In this document: piece by piece, positions 18,997 to 50,066 of the stretch
Numbering within the stretch: the stretch's first letter is position 1
How the letters are laid out: each line of letters opens with the position of its first letter
DNA from: Staphylospora marina
GTDB lineage: Bacteria; Bacillota; Bacilli; Thermoactinomycetales; Thermoactinomycetaceae
DNA: 64,000 nt
Assembly (NCBI RefSeq): GCF_003856495.1
Contig: NZ_CP034118.1
Location: forward strand, 2,020,182 to 2,084,181
Direction of reading: 5' to 3'
Translations under genes and position numbers: made by a program
Notes under the pieces: model-generated
Told to the model about the DNA's origin: nothing
What the model saw: only the letters and a program-made list of their open reading frames with translations
Databases searched by the model: none

Positions 18997-19365
18997 ATGC
19001 ATCCGGTTATTCCCGTCACCGGTTTGGTCACCTGGCGCATCACGCTCGACCCGTCGATCTGGATCATCGACGACCGGAAATTCCCTTTGTCCGACCGGAT
19101 TCCGGGCGAGGAAGGATTGGCGGTCGAGCTTTCCGCCTTTCTGAAAAACAGCGAACCTCTTCCCGAAGCCACCAAAGTGATCGTGCATCGCTCCACGGGA
19201 GATCCGGTCACCCTGAGTCTCGAAGAGGCCATGCGTGCACTCATGTGTTTCGCCAAAGACGGCAAGCCGATCCGGGAAGGCGGACCCGTCCTTCTCTATC
19301 TGGCGGACGGAAGCAACCGTCATGCGCCGATCGACGGCATCACAAAACTGGAATTGGCCGAATGA
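18997..19365 (+). CDS. Conserved hypothetical protein (122 aa)
   Basis: The protein starts MHPVIPVTGLVTWRITLDPS and contains IWIIDDRKFPL, a long acidic/basic middle and LLYLADGSNRHAPIDGI near the end. It resembles uncharacterised Bacillales proteins with a VWIFDDRK-like motif. It has no signal peptide or membrane helix. GAAAGGGGG lies about 8 bases upstream; TTG at 18994 is an adjacent alternative start. A TATAAT at 18944-18949 may be its -10 element, but no good -35 is visible. A terminator follows. Confidence 0.65.
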   Translation: MHPVIPVTGLVTWRITLDPSIWIIDDRKFPLSDRIPGEEGLAVELSAFLKNSEPLPEATKVIVHRSTGDPVTLSLEEAMRALMCFAKDGKPIREGGPVLLYLADGSNRHAPIDGITKLELAE

Positions 19366-19385
19366 TGCCGGGATTCACCCGTTCT

Positions 19386-19417
19386 CGCGCCGGAGGATGT
19401 TCTTCCGGCGCGTTTTT
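19386..19417 (+). terminator. Terminator after the 122-aa gene
   Basis: A CGCGCCGGA/TCCGGCGCG stem (19386-19394, 19404-19412) is followed by TTTTT. Confidence 0.85.
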
Positions 19418-19491
19418 CTCCGTCTTTTCTCTCCCCTCCGATCAACGCTCTTCGCCCTCCTTCTCCGGTTCGAAATTTTTTTGATTATTTC

Positions 19492-19535
19492 TTGACACGT
19501 ACTATTGACGTACCGAAAAATCAAATCAATAATAT
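19492..19535 (+). promoter_or_regulatory. A+T-rich promoter of the MFS gene with repeated ACGTAC-like motifs
   Basis: TTGACG (19505-19510) with AATAAT 17 bases on, or TAATAT 19 bases on, form a promoter in a strongly A+T-rich island unlike the surrounding DNA. A second TTGACA starts at 19492. The sequence GACACGTACtattGACGTACC holds two similar half-sites, suggesting an operator overlapping the -35 region. Confidence 0.55.
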
Positions 19536-19590
19536 AAATTAAATTTTTATTAATGTGAGTATTTTTCTGCATTTTCGAAGGGGGAGTCGT

Positions 19591-20871
19591 GTGAATTTTT
19601 TCGGTCTGCACCGGAACATCCGGATCCGACTGGTGAGCCTGTTCCTGACACGAACCGCAAACAACACCGTCTTTCCCTTTGTCGGCATCTATTTTGTGGA
19701 CAAGTTGGGCACGGACAAGGGCAGTCTTGCCCTCTTTCTCATTTCACTGGTCACCATGCTCGCCGGCTTCCCGGGCGGTTATCTGGCCGACCGGATCGGC
19801 CGCAAGAAGATGATTCTCATCTCGGAAAGCTTCATGTTTCTGGCGTTTGCGGGCATGACGCTGGCCAACTCGCCGCTGTTGGATTCCGTCCGTCTGACAT
19901 GGTGGATGATGATCCTGCACGGAGCGGGCCTGGGGCTCAGCCTGCCGGCCACCGACGCGATGATCATCGATTCAAGCAACAGCGAGAACCGGCGGACCGT
20001 GTATACCCTTCAATACTGGATCTATAACCTGTCCATCATGATCGGTTCCCTGATCGGCGGGTTGTACTTCCTGGACAAGCGTTTCTGGCTGTTTCTGGCG
20101 CTTTCCGTCGTTTCGCTCATCAATCTTCTTTTGTTTGCGACGTTGAGGGAACTGATGCCGGCGCCGACAAAAGCACCGGATTTGAGCGAATTTTTGAGCG
20201 ATTTCTCGGCTTCTTACCGGAAGGTGGCGGTTGACCGCCTGTTCATCCTGTATTGGATCGCCAGCCTTGCGGTGCTCTCGCTGGAATTTCAGTTTCCGTA
20301 CTATGTCACCGTTCTTTTGCATCGGACGTTTCCGGAACAAACCCTGTCCATCTCCGGTCTGTTCTCCGCCACGTTGGACGGCATCCAGGCCGTCAGTTGG
20401 CTTCGCATGGAAAATACCGTTCTGATCGTCGCGGGAGCGTTGCTTTTGTCTTCATGGATCAAAAAAATGAATGACAGAGCCGCTCTGACGGGCGGCATTG
20501 CCCTGTACACCGTCGGCAACGCCGCTCTGGTTCTGACCCAGGACATCGGACTCCTGCTTCTCGCCGTGTTCGTCTATACCCTCGGGGAAGTGATCTTTAT
20601 CCCGGTCAAACAGAGCATGCTGGCCGATCTGGCCGATGAACGTTCCCGCAGTGCTTACATGGCCGTTTACAATCAATTGTTTCATGTGGGCCGGCTGGCG
20701 GGAAGTCTCGGCATCAGTCTCGGTGCCCGCCTGACCCCCGGGTGGATGGCGTTTCTCTTCCTGATCACCGGTTTTGCGGGCCTGATGTTGTTTCGGACCA
20801 TTTGTCGCCGCATGGAACACCGGCTTTCCTCTCCTCCCCACGGAGAGAAGAAAATGGTCGGACAACCATGA
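19591..20871 (+). CDS. MFS transporter
   Basis: The 426-residue protein has about twelve hydrophobic helices. The loop 2-3 signature of the major facilitator superfamily is seen as GGYLADRIGRKKM (about residues 58-70), and the second half has a related GGIALYTVGNAAL region. It looks like a DHA1-type drug or metabolite efflux protein. The GTG at 19591 follows AAGGGGGAG by 4 bases. The gene is convergent with the GRDP-like repeat protein and has its own A+T-rich promoter, features of an accessory gene. Confidence 0.85.
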   Translation: MNFFGLHRNIRIRLVSLFLTRTANNTVFPFVGIYFVDKLGTDKGSLALFLISLVTMLAGFPGGYLADRIGRKKMILISESFMFLAFAGMTLANSPLLDSVRLTWWMMILHGAGLGLSLPATDAMIIDSSNSENRRTVYTLQYWIYNLSIMIGSLIGGLYFLDKRFWLFLALSVVSLINLLLFATLRELMPAPTKAPDLSEFLSDFSASYRKVAVDRLFILYWIASLAVLSLEFQFPYYVTVLLHRTFPEQTLSISGLFSATLDGIQAVSWLRMENTVLIVAGALLLSSWIKKMNDRAALTGGIALYTVGNAALVLTQDIGLLLLAVFVYTLGEVIFIPVKQSMLADLADERSRSAYMAVYNQLFHVGRLAGSLGISLGARLTPGWMAFLFLITGFAGLMLFRTICRRMEHRLSSPPHGEKKMVGQP

Positions 20872-20881
20872 ACAAACAAGA

Positions 20882-20912
20882 AAAGCGGTCGGGTTCGGAT
20901 CCCGGCCGCTTT
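20882..20912. terminator. Bidirectional terminator between MFS and GRDP-like genes
   Basis: A 12-bp stem (20882-20893, 20901-20912; one G-U pair) has a T-rich tail mainly in the minus direction (TTTTCTTG). Confidence 0.75.
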
Positions 20913-20931
20913 CTGCTTTCTCCGCCTTGCT

Positions 20932-21684
20932 TCAGCTTTTTGCCGTTCTGACCACACACAACTTCACGCCTTCGTTCGCTTCGGGTGCCACGACACACAA
21001 CTTCACACCCTCGTTCGCTTCGGGCCCCACGACACACAACTTCACGCCCTCGTTCGCTTCGGGCGCCACGACACACAACTTCACGCCCTCGTTCGCTTCG
21101 GGCGCCACGACGCACAGCTTCGCGCCTTCCTTCGCTTCGGGTGCATACACGCACCACTTCGCGCCTTCGTTCGCTTCGGGCGCCACGACGCACAGCTTCG
21201 CGCCTTCCTTCGCCTCAGGTGCCACGACACACAACTTCGTGCCTTCCTTCGCTTCGGGTGCGGACCCTTCCGATGCCACCGCCCGTTTGACGGCATCCAG
21301 CAGTCTTTTCACCCGAACAGCCGTCGCGGAAAAATATTCTTCCCCGTACTCCCGCTTCCAGTACTCTTCCGTTTCGTTTGCATAACGAATAAGCACGGGT
21401 CGTTCCTCTTCCGTGCTCCCAAACCCCCCGTTGTGATCCAGAATTCTTCCGAACAGATTCATGCAATCTTGAATATATGCCCGGGGATGCAGCATGTGCA
21501 GATGCCACATTTCGTCGATGTCACAGGCAGGAGACAGGGGGACGTCTGGATACTTCTGGACCAGTCGCAAAAACTTGCGGTAGCGGACCTCCATTTCCCC
21601 GAGTACTTCAACCGGCAACGACGAAAGAAGCTCGGAACTTTTGCGCGCGGCCTTAACCAAGTCCACACTGAGGCTGGGAAGCAT
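20932..21684 (-). CDS. GRDP-like domain protein with eight 13-residue C-terminal repeats
   Basis: The 250-residue protein has two parts. Residues 1-141 form a domain like the glycine-rich domain-containing protein (GRDP)-like family: YRKFLRLVQKYPDVPLSP, CDIDEMWHLHMLHPRAY and LDHNGGFG, then YWKREYGEEY. Residues 142-245 are eight perfect-length copies of a 13-residue unit, consensus APEANEGVKLCVV, one Cys per unit, ending RTAKS. There is no signal peptide or membrane helix. GAGGGGTG lies 6 bases before the ATG. A promoter with TATAAT lies upstream. The function is unknown; the repeats could be a scaffold, a metal-binding tail or a source of short peptides, all of which is inference. Confidence 0.8.
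   Translation of the reverse strand: MLPSLSVDLVKAARKSSELLSSLPVEVLGEMEVRYRKFLRLVQKYPDVPLSPACDIDEMWHLHMLHPRAYIQDCMNLFGRILDHNGGFGSTEEERPVLIRYANETEEYWKREYGEEYFSATAVRVKRLLDAVKRAVASEGSAPEAKEGTKLCVVAPEAKEGAKLCVVAPEANEGAKWCVYAPEAKEGAKLCVVAPEANEGVKLCVVAPEANEGVKLCVVGPEANEGVKLCVVAPEANEGVKLCVVRTAKS
20950..21261. repeat. Eight tandem 39-bp repeats (in-frame minisatellite)
   Basis: The units are exactly 39 bp, head to tail. Two adjacent units (5 and 6, counted from the protein N-terminus) are identical in DNA; the units nearest the N-terminal domain differ most. The array is open in more than one frame on both strands because the unit is a multiple of three. Confidence 0.95.
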
Positions 21685-21717
21685 GAATCACACCCCTCGG
21701 CGAATATATTCAATCTA

Positions 21718-21746
21718 ATTATAATTTATCTAATATTTAGCGTAAA
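21718..21746 (-). promoter_or_regulatory. Promoter of the GRDP-like gene
   Basis: On the minus strand TTTACG (21741-21746) and TATAAT (21718-21723) are 17 bases apart in A+T-rich DNA, 35 bases before the start codon. Confidence 0.65.
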
Positions 21747-21912
21747 TCAAGATTTTGTCATTCTCCAAGGGTTCCTGAAGAAACGGCCGGACATGGCGTA
21801 CCGGATGGGACAGGGAAATCCGGGGTTCGCCGGGCGGATCGCGTTCGGCACCATTTCGCGCGGGCTCCGCCCGGTCTTCCCGCAAATCGGTCGGCCGATG
21901 ATCATCCGGAGA

Positions 21913-22395
21913 TCATCTCTTTTTGTAGATATAGAAGGTTCCCGTGGCAAAACAGACGGGGGTATCCCGGTCCGTTTTGATTTCACAGGTGGCAATGGCG
22001 AGCGTTTTTCCCATCCGAAGCAATCGGGCCCGGGAGATGAGCATTTCCCCACGTCCCGGCTGCAGATAGTTGATCTTCAGCTCCACCGTCACGGCACCGT
22101 ACCCTTCAGGGAGATGCCGGTGAACGAGTGAACCGATCGTCGAATCGGCAAGCGTGGCCGAAATCCCGCCGTGCACCATGCCGGCCCGGTTCATCATGAA
22201 CGGGGTGACGGGAACCTGGAATTCATAGGAACCGTCTTCATTCAGTGAACCGGAAAGGCCCATGTATCCGGAAATCCAAGCGCTTTGTCTTTCGCGTTTC
22301 TGACGGATGGCCTGCAGCGTGAGCCGGAGGATCTCCCGCTCCTCGTCATTTCCTTCTTCAAGCACGCGCAGCAGTTCGTTGTGCAAATCCATCAT
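21913..22395 (-). CDS. PaaI-type hotdog thioesterase
   Basis: A 160-residue hotdog-fold protein with MVHGGISATLADSTIG (the HGG helix motif of PaaI/YdiI-type acyl-CoA thioesterases, about residues 73-88) and VTVELKINYLQPGRG. It probably hydrolyses acyl- or aryl-CoA in the cytosol. The ATG at 22395 has AAGGGAG 7 bases upstream and overlaps the end of the M42 peptidase gene by 38 bases, so the two are likely co-transcribed. A second thioesterase of this type is at 27754-28260. Confidence 0.85.
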   Translation of the reverse strand: MMDLHNELLRVLEEGNDEEREILRLTLQAIRQKRERQSAWISGYMGLSGSLNEDGSYEFQVPVTPFMMNRAGMVHGGISATLADSTIGSLVHRHLPEGYGAVTVELKINYLQPGRGEMLISRARLLRMGKTLAIATCEIKTDRDTPVCFATGTFYIYKKR

Positions 22396-23458
22396 TGACT
22401 GACTCCCTTGTGTCCGGCAGAGACGTCATCAAGTAAGCATCCAGAAGCCTCCAGGTCTGTTCCAATGCGTCGCGATGCGTCCGTTCGTACGCATGGGAAG
22501 CGTCCACTCCCGGGCCGCAAAGCGCATGCATCACGTCGTGACCCGCCCTCACCGCGGCACTGGCATCCGACCCGTAGCGGGGATAGATGTCCACCTGATG
22601 ACGGATGTCGTGCTCTTCGGCCAACCGGACAAGAAATTGGGTCAATCCGTAATGATACGGACCGGAAGAATCCTTGGCGCAAATGGATACGGAAAATTCG
22701 TCGCCGGTTTGTCCGCTTCCGAGCGCTCCCATGTCCACCGCCAAAAACTCGCGCACGTCGGGCGGGATGGCGCTGTTGGCTCCAAACCCGACTTCCTCGT
22801 AACAGCTGAAATAAAAATGGGTGGTGTGAGCCGGCCGGCGACCGCTCTTCGCAAACGCGGCGATCAGCTCGATCAGGACGGCGACGGCGGCTTTGTCGTC
22901 CAGATGGCGCGCCTTGATGAATCCGGTTTCCGTCCATTCAATCATCGGTTCAAAGGAGACGAAATCTCCCACGCGAATCCCCTGCTTCCGCACTTCCTCG
23001 GCACTGTTTGCCGCAAGATCCAACCGGACCTCCATCGTTTCGTCCGACCTGGGTTGTTTTTCCGCATCATGGTAGACATGAACGGACGTGTGGGAAGCGA
23101 GAATGGTTCCGGAATGTTCCCGGCCGTCCCGGGTATGAACGCGGCAATACGCCCCGTCCACGGAAAACCAGCCGAACCCGCCGATTTTGGTCAGCTTGAG
23201 TCGCCCGTCGGGTTTGATCTCTTTCACCATGGCTCCCAGCGTGTCCACGTGAGCGGTGATGTACCGGTGGTGTCTGTCATTTTTCCCGTTCAGCGTCACG
23301 CGAAGCCCGCCTTTGTTGTCCCGGACGGTTTCAAGCCCCAGTGACCCGAGCCGCTTCTCCACGAAGTCGACGGCCCGATGAGCATATCCCGTCGGACTGG
23401 GAATGGCCAGCAAATCCACCAACGTCATCTTTACCCGTTCTTCGGGAAATGCATGCAT
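22358..23458 (-). CDS. M42 family metallopeptidase
   Basis: The product is 366 residues. M42 (FrvX/glutamyl aminopeptidase-like) features are the AIPSPTGYAHRAVDF opening, the metal-site segment ITAHVDTLG, ARHLDDKAA with the bridging Asp, YEEVGFGA with the catalytic and metal Glu, and a final DASHAYERTH with a metal His. It is a cobalt- or zinc-dependent aminopeptidase of the cytosol. The ATG at 23458 has GGAGGGG 5 bases upstream. It lies 85 bases downstream of an M29 aminopeptidase, forming a peptide-degradation cluster. Confidence 0.9.
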   Translation of the reverse strand: MHAFPEERVKMTLVDLLAIPSPTGYAHRAVDFVEKRLGSLGLETVRDNKGGLRVTLNGKNDRHHRYITAHVDTLGAMVKEIKPDGRLKLTKIGGFGWFSVDGAYCRVHTRDGREHSGTILASHTSVHVYHDAEKQPRSDETMEVRLDLAANSAEEVRKQGIRVGDFVSFEPMIEWTETGFIKARHLDDKAAVAVLIELIAAFAKSGRRPAHTTHFYFSCYEEVGFGANSAIPPDVREFLAVDMGALGSGQTGDEFSVSICAKDSSGPYHYGLTQFLVRLAEEHDIRHQVDIYPRYGSDASAAVRAGHDVMHALCGPGVDASHAYERTHRDALEQTWRLLDAYLMTSLPDTRESVNDGFAQRTAARA

Positions 23459-23543
23459 GAAAACCCCTCCAATGAAGAGAAGCGGCTTCTCCCCCGACGG
23501 GAGAGAGCCGCGGATGTTTGTCCCGAATCCGGCCCCGGTCACA

Positions 23544-24683
23544 TCAGACGGTCTCAAACGAGCGGCTGGCCTTGAGGGCATCGGGATTGAGCCCTTTCAG
23601 ATCCTCGGTGACAAACAAACCGTCCTTGCGGATCAGTTCATCGTCAAACCAGATCTCTCCGCCGCCGTATTCCGGACGCTGAATGCAGACCAGATCCCAG
23701 TGAATCGAGGAGCGGTTGCCGTTGTCCGCTTCCTCGTAAGCCTGGCCGGGCGTGAAGTGGAAGCTGCCGTTGATCTTCTCGTCAAACAGGGTGTCTTTCA
23801 TCGGATGGTTGATGTGCGGGTTGACGCCGAGACTGAATTCTCCGATGTAACGGGCCCCTTCGTCCGCATCGAGGAGCTGGTTGATCCGTTCGGTGTCATT
23901 GGCCGTCGCTTTGACGATTTTGCCGTCCTTGAACTCGAAACGGATGTTTTCATAGGTGAAGCCCTGATACACGGAGGGAGTGTTGAACGTGATGTAACCG
24001 TTTACGGAATCACGGACGGGGGCGGTGAACACTTCTCCGTCCGGGATGTTGTTCTGTCCGGCGCATTTGATCACCGGGATGTCTTTGATGGAGAACGTGA
24101 GATCGGTTCCCGGTCCCTTGATCCGCACCTTGTCGGCCCGCTCCATCCGTTTGACCAGCGGCTCCATCGCTTCCGCCATGCGCTCGTAATCCACGTTGCA
24201 AACCCGGAAGTAAAAATCTTCGAATGCTTCCGTGGACATGCCGGCCAATTGAGCCATTGAATGGTTCGGATAACGGAGAACGACCCATTTGGTTTTCTTG
24301 ACGCGTTGTTCGCTGTGAATCGGGTGATTGTACAGCTTCATGAACAGGCGGATCTTCTCTTCCGGCACATCGCTGAGTTCGTTGACATTGTCGGAACCGC
24401 GGATGCCGATGTAAGCATCCATCTTCTTCATCCGTTCCAAATCCAGCTCCGACCAGACGGACAAATGTTCCTCGCTGGTTCCCATCAGCAGCTGGCGGGT
24501 GATCGACTGGTCATTGAGCTGGACGTGCGGATACCCTCCCGCCGCGTACACTTCCTTGACCAGCTCCCGCGCCAGTTCGCGCTCCTTGCCGAACACGTCG
24601 ATCAGGACGCGTTCCCCTTTTTGAACGCGGCATGAATGACGGACGAGGATTCGGGCCAGTTCCGACACTCGTTGATCTCGCAT
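23544..24683 (-). CDS. M29 family aminopeptidase (AmpS/PepS type)
   Basis: The 379-residue product matches M29 aminopeptidases: an N-terminal KGERVLIDVFGKERELARE segment and C-terminal metal-site regions GEFSLGVNPHI and EADNGNRSSIHWDLV (Glu, His and Asp ligands). It releases N-terminal residues from peptides in the cytosol and needs divalent metal. The ATG has AAGGGGATG upstream. Followed by the M42 peptidase and a thioesterase on the same strand. Confidence 0.9.
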   Translation of the reverse strand: MRDQRVSELARILVRHSCRVQKGERVLIDVFGKERELARELVKEVYAAGGYPHVQLNDQSITRQLLMGTSEEHLSVWSELDLERMKKMDAYIGIRGSDNVNELSDVPEEKIRLFMKLYNHPIHSEQRVKKTKWVVLRYPNHSMAQLAGMSTEAFEDFYFRVCNVDYERMAEAMEPLVKRMERADKVRIKGPGTDLTFSIKDIPVIKCAGQNNIPDGEVFTAPVRDSVNGYITFNTPSVYQGFTYENIRFEFKDGKIVKATANDTERINQLLDADEGARYIGEFSLGVNPHINHPMKDTLFDEKINGSFHFTPGQAYEEADNGNRSSIHWDLVCIQRPEYGGGEIWFDDELIRKDGLFVTEDLKGLNPDALKASRSFETV

Positions 24684-47744: not shown

Positions 47745-50066
47745 ATGAAACGGTCTGACGCCCACCGTCCCGGGGGTTTCGGAAAATCCAGGACATTGAA
47801 GGTGGTCCTCACCACCCTCTATGTCCTGCTCATCGTTTCACTGGTGCTGGTCGTCGGTGCCATCGGAGTGGGGGCAGGCATCGTATCGGCCATGGTGAAA
47901 GATGAAAAAATCAGGACCCGGGAAGACTTCGAAAAAGATCTCAACAGTCTCTTCCAGAACAGTTACGCCTACTTCCGAAACAAGGACAAAGACAACAATC
48001 CGGTGAGAATCGGCGCCTTTCGCAACGACGGGGACGTGCGGAAACTGATCAAGTCCCTGGACGACGTCAGCCCGCACCTGATCGACGCATTCATCGCCAT
48101 CGAGGACCGGAAGTTTTACGAGCACAACGGGATCGTCCCCAAATCGCTCCTGCGCGCCGCCTGGCAGCAGGCCACCAACGCGGAAGTCACCACGGGCGGA
48201 AGCACCATCACCCAACAGTTGGTCAAAAACGTGATCCTGAAGAACTTCGACAAGGATCTGGAGCGAAAAGCCAAAGAAATCGTCTTGGCCATTCGTCTGG
48301 ATTCCATGTTCGAAAAAGATGATATCCTCGTCTATTATATGAACAGCGCATTCTTCGGAAACGGGGCCAACCGCAAGCAGCGTCTCTACGGCGTGCAGGC
48401 GGCGGCCCAGGGGCTCTTCAACAGGGACGCCAAAGACCTGCATCTCGCTCAGGCTGCCTATATCGCAGGAATGGTTCAGCGCCCCAACTCCTACAACCCC
48501 TTTTTCGGGAAAGACGGGGACAAAAATCTGGAGCGCGGTCTGAAGCGGATGAAGATGGTCCTGGACGCCATGCTGGAAACAGAGAAAATCACCCAAGCCC
48601 AATATGAAGAGGCGCTGAAATTCGACATCAAAAAGTCGCTGGCCAAACCGGACCACGTACAAAACTCGTATGCAAATTATCCGTTCCTGATGTACGCCCT
48701 GGAACAGGAAGCCGCGGAGATCCTCATGGAAAAAGACGGCCTGAGCATCGAGGAGCTCTCCAAACAGGGCAAGTACCGGAGCACGCTGGAAGAGTATATC
48801 GGCAAGGTGAAAACGCGCGGGTACCACATCTACAGCACGATCGACAAAAACATGTACGACGCGGTCGTCAAGGAAGCAACCAAAGGCCTCCGCTTCCGCA
48901 CCCGCACGTACGAGGGCCGCAAACTGCAGGAACAGCTCGGTGCGGTGGTGATTGACAACAAGACGGGAGACATCCTGGCGTTCGTGTCTTCCACCACCGA
49001 CGATGACGTGGACCATGCGTTCACGTCCCGGCAACCCGGATCGACGATCAAGCCGCTGCTTGTATATGCTCCGGCCATCGAGGAAAAAGTGATTTCCCCC
49101 AACACCATCGTGGTCGACGAGGAGCTTCCCAAAGCGGACGGATCCGGCATTTACAAAAACTCCAACAACAAATACAAGGGACCGGTCCGGGTGACCGAAG
49201 CCCTGAAATGGTCCTACAACATTCCGGCGATCAAGGTATTCCGGAAGCTGGGCTTTGAAAACGGGTTTGAATACCTCAGACAACTGGGGCTTCCCCCCCA
49301 TCCCAAAGACACGGAAGCATCCGCCATCGGCGGCATGACCCGCGGATATTCCGTTTCCAGAATGACCGCTGCCTTTGCCTCCCTGGCCAACGGCGGCGTC
49401 TATCACAAACCGCACCTGATCAACAAGATCACCGATTCGGACGGAAACGTGATCTGGGAACGCAAACAGGAACCGCAACAGATCTTCTCCCCGCAAACCG
49501 CCTACCAGGTCACCACCATGCTGAAATCGGTGGTGCGCGGCGGAACCGGCACCTACATCGGCAGCCGCATCCCCGGCTACGAGATCGCCGGAAAAACGGG
49601 AACCACGCAAAACGACAAGGACAAATGGTTCATCGGCTATACGCCGCAAGTGACCATCGGTGTGTGGAGCGGATACGACATCGAGAAATTCACCCTGAGC
49701 CACAACACCCTGATTGCCCAACAGGCTTGGGTGAACATCTTCAAAGCGGCGGCCGCGGCCAGCCCGCAGTGGTTTGACAAATCGGCCCGCTTCACCAATC
49801 CCGGCGGCCTGTTCTGGGGAGTTCCCTGCCTGGATTGCGACCGCCTCGAACAATGGAAGAAGAAAGAAGAAGAACAGAAGCAAAAAGAAGAAGAAGAGAA
49901 GAGAAAGAGAGAGGGAGAACCCCCCAATGGCCCCGGTGACCAGCCGGGCCATGATCCGAATGACTCCAAGCCGTCCGACCGTCCTCCCGGCGGCGACAGG
50001 GATGACGACGGGAACGGCAATCATGACAATCCCATCAAGCCTCAGTGGCCGCCTTCGCGGAATTGA
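47745..50066 (+). CDS. Class A penicillin-binding protein 1A type
   Basis: The product has 773 residues. It has a short cytosolic start, one membrane helix (about 18-48), a GT51 glycosyltransferase with catalytic Glu120 (IEDRKFYEHNG) and GGSTITQQ (151-158), and a transpeptidase with Ser433-x-x-Lys436 (GSTIKPL), SYN (490-492) and KTG (617-619). The tail is a Lys/Glu-rich stretch then Pro/Asp/Gly-rich. It polymerises and cross-links peptidoglycan outside the cell. GGAGGG lies upstream of the ATG. A paralogue follows. Confidence 0.94.
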   Translation: MKRSDAHRPGGFGKSRTLKVVLTTLYVLLIVSLVLVVGAIGVGAGIVSAMVKDEKIRTREDFEKDLNSLFQNSYAYFRNKDKDNNPVRIGAFRNDGDVRKLIKSLDDVSPHLIDAFIAIEDRKFYEHNGIVPKSLLRAAWQQATNAEVTTGGSTITQQLVKNVILKNFDKDLERKAKEIVLAIRLDSMFEKDDILVYYMNSAFFGNGANRKQRLYGVQAAAQGLFNRDAKDLHLAQAAYIAGMVQRPNSYNPFFGKDGDKNLERGLKRMKMVLDAMLETEKITQAQYEEALKFDIKKSLAKPDHVQNSYANYPFLMYALEQEAAEILMEKDGLSIEELSKQGKYRSTLEEYIGKVKTRGYHIYSTIDKNMYDAVVKEATKGLRFRTRTYEGRKLQEQLGAVVIDNKTGDILAFVSSTTDDDVDHAFTSRQPGSTIKPLLVYAPAIEEKVISPNTIVVDEELPKADGSGIYKNSNNKYKGPVRVTEALKWSYNIPAIKVFRKLGFENGFEYLRQLGLPPHPKDTEASAIGGMTRGYSVSRMTAAFASLANGGVYHKPHLINKITDSDGNVIWERKQEPQQIFSPQTAYQVTTMLKSVVRGGTGTYIGSRIPGYEIAGKTGTTQNDKDKWFIGYTPQVTIGVWSGYDIEKFTLSHNTLIAQQAWVNIFKAAAAASPQWFDKSARFTNPGGLFWGVPCLDCDRLEQWKKKEEEQKQKEEEEKRKREGEPPNGPGDQPGHDPNDSKPSDRPPGGDRDDDGNGNHDNPIKPQWPPSRN

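Follow-up and report, generated by a model that had tools for sequence, protein, structure and literature searches.

Across bacterial relatives, a conserved GRDP-like domain recurrently carries C-terminal tandem units that are specific to each lineage and share a nucleophile centre, which is kept against synonymous change. The gene under study lies in a 64,000-nucleotide stretch of the Staphylospora marina chromosome (hereafter, the window), is present as a single copy in the 2.75-Mb genome and encodes a protein of 250 amino acids on the minus strand (20932..21684; ATG at 21684, stop at 20932). The protein begins with a compact helical GRDP-like domain, delimited by a Pfam match, the alignment and an AlphaFold2 model (residues 1-118; 21331..21684, minus strand), which is followed by a linker that is predicted with low confidence by AlphaFold2 to form a helix (residues 119-141; 21262..21330, minus strand). 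Next come eight units of 39 bp, or 13 residues, with one Cys each (residues 142-245; 20950..21261, minus strand) and a five-residue end, RTAKS, with the stop codon (20932..20949, minus strand). The coordinates agree exactly with those of the initial annotation, and so do the domain and the five-residue end.

Units 5, 6 and 8 share the sequence APEANEGVKLCVV, from which the remaining five depart at one to three positions; the earlier description of eight exact 13-residue units thus stands for their length and not for their sequence. All 8 units contain the Cys, encoded by TGT in five and TGC in three, with Leu before it in seven units and Trp in one. Units 5 and 6 (21028..21105, minus strand) have the same DNA at 39/39 bases, in line with the adjacent pair reported initially, and 2 bases distinguish unit 7 from this pair. 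Tandem Repeats Finder assigned the array a period of 39 bp, 7.8 copies and a score of 419 (threshold 50), while the protein self-match score was 69 compared with no more than 6 in 200 shuffles. The array has neither CXC nor CXXC clusters, and the protein lacks an RPx(L/F/M) motif near its end. There is one Gly per unit, except for two in unit 7, and a glycine-rich C-terminal region of the plant type is not present. No signal peptide is apparent when the N-terminus is read by eye, as had been claimed, and no transmembrane helix is apparent in the protein. A further short tandem repeat in the window, rich in AG, occupies positions 49856-49908.

A single-gene unit is suggested by a promoter-like site in front of the gene and a hairpin between its end and the neighbouring MFS gene. 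The putative promoter is of the sigma-70 type (TTTACG-17-TATAAT, 10/12 matches; 21718..21746, minus strand), and a ribosome-binding-site-like GAGGGGTG was recognized by eye ahead of the ATG (21691..21698, minus strand). The 12-pair hairpin lies between the convergent ends of the two genes (20882..20912) and is terminator-like on the plus strand. The region contains 4 promoter-like sites versus 0.4 expected and 3 such terminator-like sites versus 1.7 expected. A plus-strand open frame opposite the gene (20927-21385) is as expected from a repeat period divisible by three. Rfam gave no match in 19000-24000, and PHROGs gave none.

Among the seven window genes scanned on either side are an MFS transporter, a hotdog thioesterase and M42 and M29 peptidases, and Pfam detected among them no metal-transport, metal-resistance or maturase family. 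In 4/5 stretches from the same family (L128-L131), M29-, M42- and thioesterase-like genes lie within a few kb of each other, the fifth (L132) being without the thioesterase, and none of the five has a GRDP match. The site of the window gene is therefore variable, and the peptidases do not count as partners. A partnership with the MFS gene was rejected as well, since the window MFS and the MFS beside a Macrococcoides relative are unlike each other.

The domain matches PF07173 (GRDP-like) at residues 6-73 with an E-value of 9.1e-14 and 52.8 bits against a gathering cut-off of 22.7. Eight residues (D57, W60, H61, H63, Y70, D73, C74 and H84) are invariant in 64 aligned sequences. AlphaFold2 gave a confident helical domain for both proteins modelled, the window protein and a Trinickia relative, and Foldseek matched neither model to the PDB at E up to 0.001. 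The VIA comparison tested mainly the tail, and the domain may have a known fold. Sequence searches with the window protein returned nothing from the PDB and no NCBIfam family at E up to 1, hence no TIGR04222 match. A literature search, with most subscription papers and bioRxiv preprints outside its scope, returned no paper on bacterial GRDP-like repeat proteins or on a role of the domain in bacteria, and no description of an architecture joining a GRDP-like domain to a reiterated Cys unit.

Within the order, the PF07173 profile matches in 1/42 genomes, and a domain-profile search of 398 genomes found strong relatives (E below 1e-30) in two other genomes. One of these, a Bacilli genome (G516), encodes the two nearest relatives, whose domains are 51% and 57% identical to that of the window protein. 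In one G516 tail, seven Cys follow each other every 11 residues around the core PEAQAKICLG, and the other has six Cys spaced by 14, 14, 14, 14 and 15 residues with the core ADSNPAMIKCLYRK. The relative in the other genome (G543) has no repeats. The expectation of repeat tails in close relatives is thus borne out by the two nearest, both carrying units other than those of the window, and ceases to hold at the next, a tail-less Macrococcoides plasmid protein with 39% domain identity. All four sequences (window, two G516 and Macrococcoides) are grouped by the tree (SH-aLRT 100, quick search). Weaker matches in Bacilli are mostly longer proteins, and most of those read have an N-terminal transmembrane helix apparent by eye and a Ser/Gly/Cys tail. 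The genome of the window itself encodes a longer GRDP-like protein related to these, with an apparent transmembrane helix and a tail without Cys (L127, 444-1499, minus strand). The tail also gave matches in two Bacilli genomes, of which the one translated (L012) was rejected as a relative, being an unrelated Cys-Cys/His-rich repeat protein.

A wider sample was obtained by scanning genome contigs with an alignment of seven plasmid relatives and keeping the best 80 of 507 relatives; the scan of genome contigs with the window protein as query gave no relative. Phages gave one distant match and viral contigs no relative, while plasmid scans returned 18 and 36 matching records, 17 places of which were translated. 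A significant tandem tail, exceeding all of 200 shuffles, occurs in 53 of the best 80 of 507 relatives, a proportion that is not a general rate, as the 80 loci are the best matches to a Cupriavidus query. With the window added, such tails are found in 54/81 sequences, and the period is 9-14 residues in 49 of these 54; across the best 80 of 507, periods range from 7 to 19 residues. In the class to which the genome of L057 belongs, 24 of 274 genomes had a match and 29 loci were read. Six of these were flagged as repetitive, the sole unit array being that of the centre genome itself and the other five being low-complexity Gly/Cys-type tails; unit arrays may be a minority in this class.

Despite their varied sequence and length, the units retain the Cys, with a hydrophobic or aromatic residue before it and usually a small one after it. 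Among the best 80 of 507, an aromatic residue precedes Cys in 360/387 cases, and Ala, Val or Gly follows it in 341/387. Agreement between the units of 46 arrays, with positions counted from Cys and units without Cys therefore unscored, reaches 0.91, 0.96 and 0.97 at positions -2, -1 and +1, and 0.65-0.74 at -4, -3 and +3. Both Cys codons occur in 29/46 arrays, which thus hold on to the residue despite codon change. In 8/54 arrays (window plus best 80 of 507), Ser takes the Cys position in a like setting (AYSA, AYSG, AHSG, AWSA, AFSA); more than one Ser codon is used in 7 of these 8, and one has both TCN and AGY.

The number of Cys per repeat tail ranges from 2, in an array ended by the contig end (L087), to 22 among the best 80 of 507. 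For instance, four Paraburkholderia tails have 5, 6, 11 and 22 Cys, and Trinickia tails have 5 to 16. The initial proposal that the array is expanding or being homogenised is supported by this variation in unit number and sequence among relatives, together with the identity of units 5 and 6. Many relatives without unit arrays also end in short Cys-bearing tails, and an RPx(L/F/M) motif is found within the last 25 residues of 20/93 sequences versus 1.1 expected. The repeat label requires 9 changes, at least three of them forced by starred branches, on a tree made by a quick search of 115 columns in which 39/90 inner branches are open; the repeat-tail architecture was thus gained or lost repeatedly. 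The repeats are probably functional, since relatives in distant bacteria have different repeats of a common design, and a sensor gene frequently adjoins them.

Two further arrangements were noted around GRDP-like genes. Three conserved genes and a ParE-like gene precede them in L085 (2486-4725), L092 and L098, where the tail is HACHxPxSCxCRVPGAC; the three conserved genes, checked in L085, have no Pfam match. In L010, L011 and L008, tail-less GRDP-like genes are directly followed by a gene of about 440 amino acids, with a weak MatE match in one.

In β-proteobacteria, the repeat gene usually adjoins a gene for a CHASE-domain (PF03924) sensor. Using a CHASE profile built from four of these neighbouring sensors, we found a CHASE gene within 500 bp of 45/53 repeat-tailed loci versus 1/27 others among the best 80 of 507 (Fisher 5e-13, common descent uncorrected). 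The adjacent gene is on the same strand as the repeat gene in 39/45 cases, and the sensors scanned end in GGDEF-EAL or histidine kinases. Four of the 8 repeat-tailed loci without CHASE at this distance have a CHASE match at 1.1-2.6 kb, three lie less than 2 kb from the locus start, and one, from a Thiomargarita draft genome (L056), has none. Among the 27 loci without a tandem tail, CHASE is adjacent in L034 and about 0.9 kb away in L032 and L035, all three with short AYC-type tails. In a distant Azospirillum relative with nine 9-residue units, a histidine kinase gene whose CHASE8 match is weak and under the cut-off ends 75 bp before the first possible start. Distances between tails go with those between CHASE domains once the GRDP domain is allowed for (partial r 0.39, p 0.001), and also once GGDEF-EAL is (0.30 versus 0.11 the other way, 26 loci), with the species tree still inside both tests; the slight advantage of CHASE over GGDEF-EAL in tracking tail similarity is a weak hint only. 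No CHASE match occurs in the window's genome or in G516, and the sensor link therefore cannot directly explain the window gene.

The initial annotation also suggested looking for modifying enzymes or peptidases beside homologues; no dedicated one was found beside the window gene, and the two aminopeptidase genes upstream of it are not partners. Searches with four MNIO and three YcaO queries, which found each other, gave no match in up to 5 kb of flanking sequence on either side of the 80 loci (best 80 of 507). At the genome level, 25 genomes were searched, comprising that of the window, G516 and 23 of those behind the 53 repeat-tailed loci. MNIO is present in 20/25 versus 2/14 controls, and YcaO in 15/25, including the window's genome, versus 5/14 controls. 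MNIO (PF05114) has no match in the window's genome, and YcaO is absent from G516, the home of the two closest relatives. Both are missing from the Cupriavidus necator genome of L025, which has a chromosomal tail with ten Cys, and from the Thiomargarita draft genome of L056. A substrate of MNIO enzymes is thus a weakened reading, given the window's genome and the 80 flanks, and so is a substrate of YcaO (azole) enzymes, given G516 and the same flanks.

The sole YcaO gene of the window's genome is inside a thiopeptide-like cluster about 420-460 kb from the window. This cluster (L162, 94-8361, plus strand, G000:C1) contains two pyridine-synthase-like genes below the model's cut-off, a ThiF-like gene, a SagD-type YcaO gene and two SagB-type dehydrogenase genes. 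Elsewhere, a GRDP-like gene with the short tail CGGETQARGCSPQRCP is followed by genes for a SAM methyltransferase, a TauD-type dioxygenase and a UvrA-like ATPase (Pfam; L082, 5400-10329). Short tails of this type are also present in L007, which is annotated with a methyltransferase and TauD, and in L096 and L101; by clustering, the methyltransferase is common to L096 and L101, and the UvrA-like ATPase to L007, L096 and L101. The L082-type locus looks like a biosynthetic cluster. A short Cys tail without a unit array is found beside a JmjC gene in L086. In a single γ-proteobacterial locus, from Marinomonas, a prokaryotic viperin gene, above the model's cut-off, comes just after the GRDP-like gene (L095, 5583-6599, plus strand).

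Our tentative preference, held at somewhat less than an even chance, is that the array serves as a substrate made of many peptide copies, borne by a folded domain that resembles a leader. The initial option of a substrate cut into 13-mers may hold. The protein would be cytoplasmic, with the helical GRDP-like domain working as a leader or recognition module and the C-terminal array presenting one nucleophilic side chain per short peptide (Cys, or Ser in certain relatives), flanked by a hydrophobic and a usually small residue. Units would be gained and lost by duplication while selection holds the Cys centre; the domain would be recognized, and each unit would be modified at its Cys, or released, by enzymes encoded elsewhere. 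We infer that the domain is the leader or carrier and the units are the substrates, and that the importance of the array lies in the units themselves and not in a fold or a metal cluster. In favour, the same domain carries unrelated units and yet one Cys per unit in the nearest relatives, the disordered tail predicted for the Trinickia protein fits linear peptides, and the short-Cys-tail relatives L082 and L086 adjoin modifying-type genes. Against it, neither an enzyme for modification nor a peptidase for processing turned up in linkage with repeat-tailed genes, the window gene stands alone, and the β-proteobacterial partner is a sensor, not an enzyme. The commonness of MNIO in repeat-bearing genomes counts the other way, though it is unlinked to the repeat genes. 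That the array is instead a multivalent tail used for docking or readout in signalling, with domain and motif binding a partner such as the CHASE sensor or its ligand, appears rather unlikely. The adjacency of CHASE genes with varied outputs, the kinase near the Azospirillum units and the distance correlations speak for docking, but the CHASE link is confounded by common descent in β-proteobacteria, the correlations still contain the species tree, and CHASE is missing from the window's genome and G516.

A structural β-solenoid with stacked Cys residues is a less probable explanation. AlphaFold2 places a strand at each unit of the window tail (E150-154, 163-167, etc.), a possible β-solenoid, and VIA finds its best matches in the tail, to β-rich structures led by a CARP domain at Z 5.9. 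However, the block pLDDT of 52-73 is moderate, models of this sort often score a Z below 8 according to the tool itself, and periods of 7 to 19 residues would not share one solenoid turn. As a conserved structure, the stack suggested initially is further weakened by the Trinickia relative, which also has 13-residue units and whose tail is predicted to be disordered (block pLDDT 28-49, the domain being mostly above 90). Metal binding, the other purpose proposed at the outset, would make the array a thiol or metal buffer, metallothionein-like or copper-binding. The constant spacing of one Cys per unit and the many Cys in most tails agree with it, as do the Cys-rich MNIO-modified bufferins, which bind copper (PMC12452194). 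The clusters expected of such a buffer are lacking in the array, the 8/54 arrays with Ser for Cys (window plus best 80 of 507) weaken metal binding as a general purpose, and neither MNIO in the window's genome nor a metal family among the seven genes scanned was detected, which leaves the buffer improbable. Least probable of all, in our estimate, is that the repeats expanded under little or no selection at the end of a protein whose domain is functional. Unit sequence and number do change freely between relatives, and the tail can be missing (L005) or truncated (L026), but the small motif recurs with unrelated units, and the Cys is kept with a varying codon in most arrays that have it.

A broader form of the substrate reading may also be considered, although we regard it as improbable. 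The GRDP-like domain would lead or carry the members of a new class of reiterated Cys/Ser peptide precursors that crosses phyla. In β-proteobacteria, the precursor would yield a multi-copy peptide signal, perceived by a CHASE receptor with c-di-GMP or histidine-kinase output, the Bacilli being a stand-alone branch. The GRDP-like domain is present in many bacteria, and this nameless family becomes testable in terms of the fate of the Cys and of whether the sensor reads it. Should the peptides be released or modified, genome mining that starts from maturases would overlook the system, as none was found beside the repeat genes.

Compared with known systems, the repeat-tailed relatives stand next to CHASE-domain sensors (PF03924) in 45/53 cases among the best 80 of 507, yet the window's genome has no match to them. 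The domain itself (PF07173, formerly DUF1399) is common to the window protein and plant members such as Arabidopsis GRDP2. Plant GRDP-like proteins have a low-complexity, glycine-rich tail after the domain; the window protein is alike in having a low-complexity tail there, which consists of 13-residue Cys units and is not glycine-rich. Metallothionein-like proteins have clustered Cys motifs such as CXC, whereas the window array has one Cys per 13 residues and some relatives have Ser arrays. A Cys-bearing low-complexity C-terminal tail is shared with TIGR04222 membrane proteins and with the longer Bacilli GRDP-like proteins with Gly/Ser/Cys tails. A Gloeothece protein combines a GRDP-like region and TIGR04222 in a single chain, and some TIGR04222 tails are partly similar to GRDP-repeat tails. 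Unlike the TIGR04222 proteins, the window protein has no apparent transmembrane helix or TIGR04222 match, and its tail is made of defined units. According to PMC12452194, MNIO enzymes are proposed to modify some TIGR04222 tails, and Buf_EGKCG/oxazolin precursors have 17-residue repeats. From these and from multi-core RiPP precursors the GRDP-like repeat proteins differ in that no maturase was found beside their genes, no signal peptide is apparent and Ser arrays exist. Multi-core RiPP precursors of the Nif11 and NHLP types have large leaders, and the window protein resembles multi-core precursors in carrying near-identical core-like units behind a conserved leader-like part.
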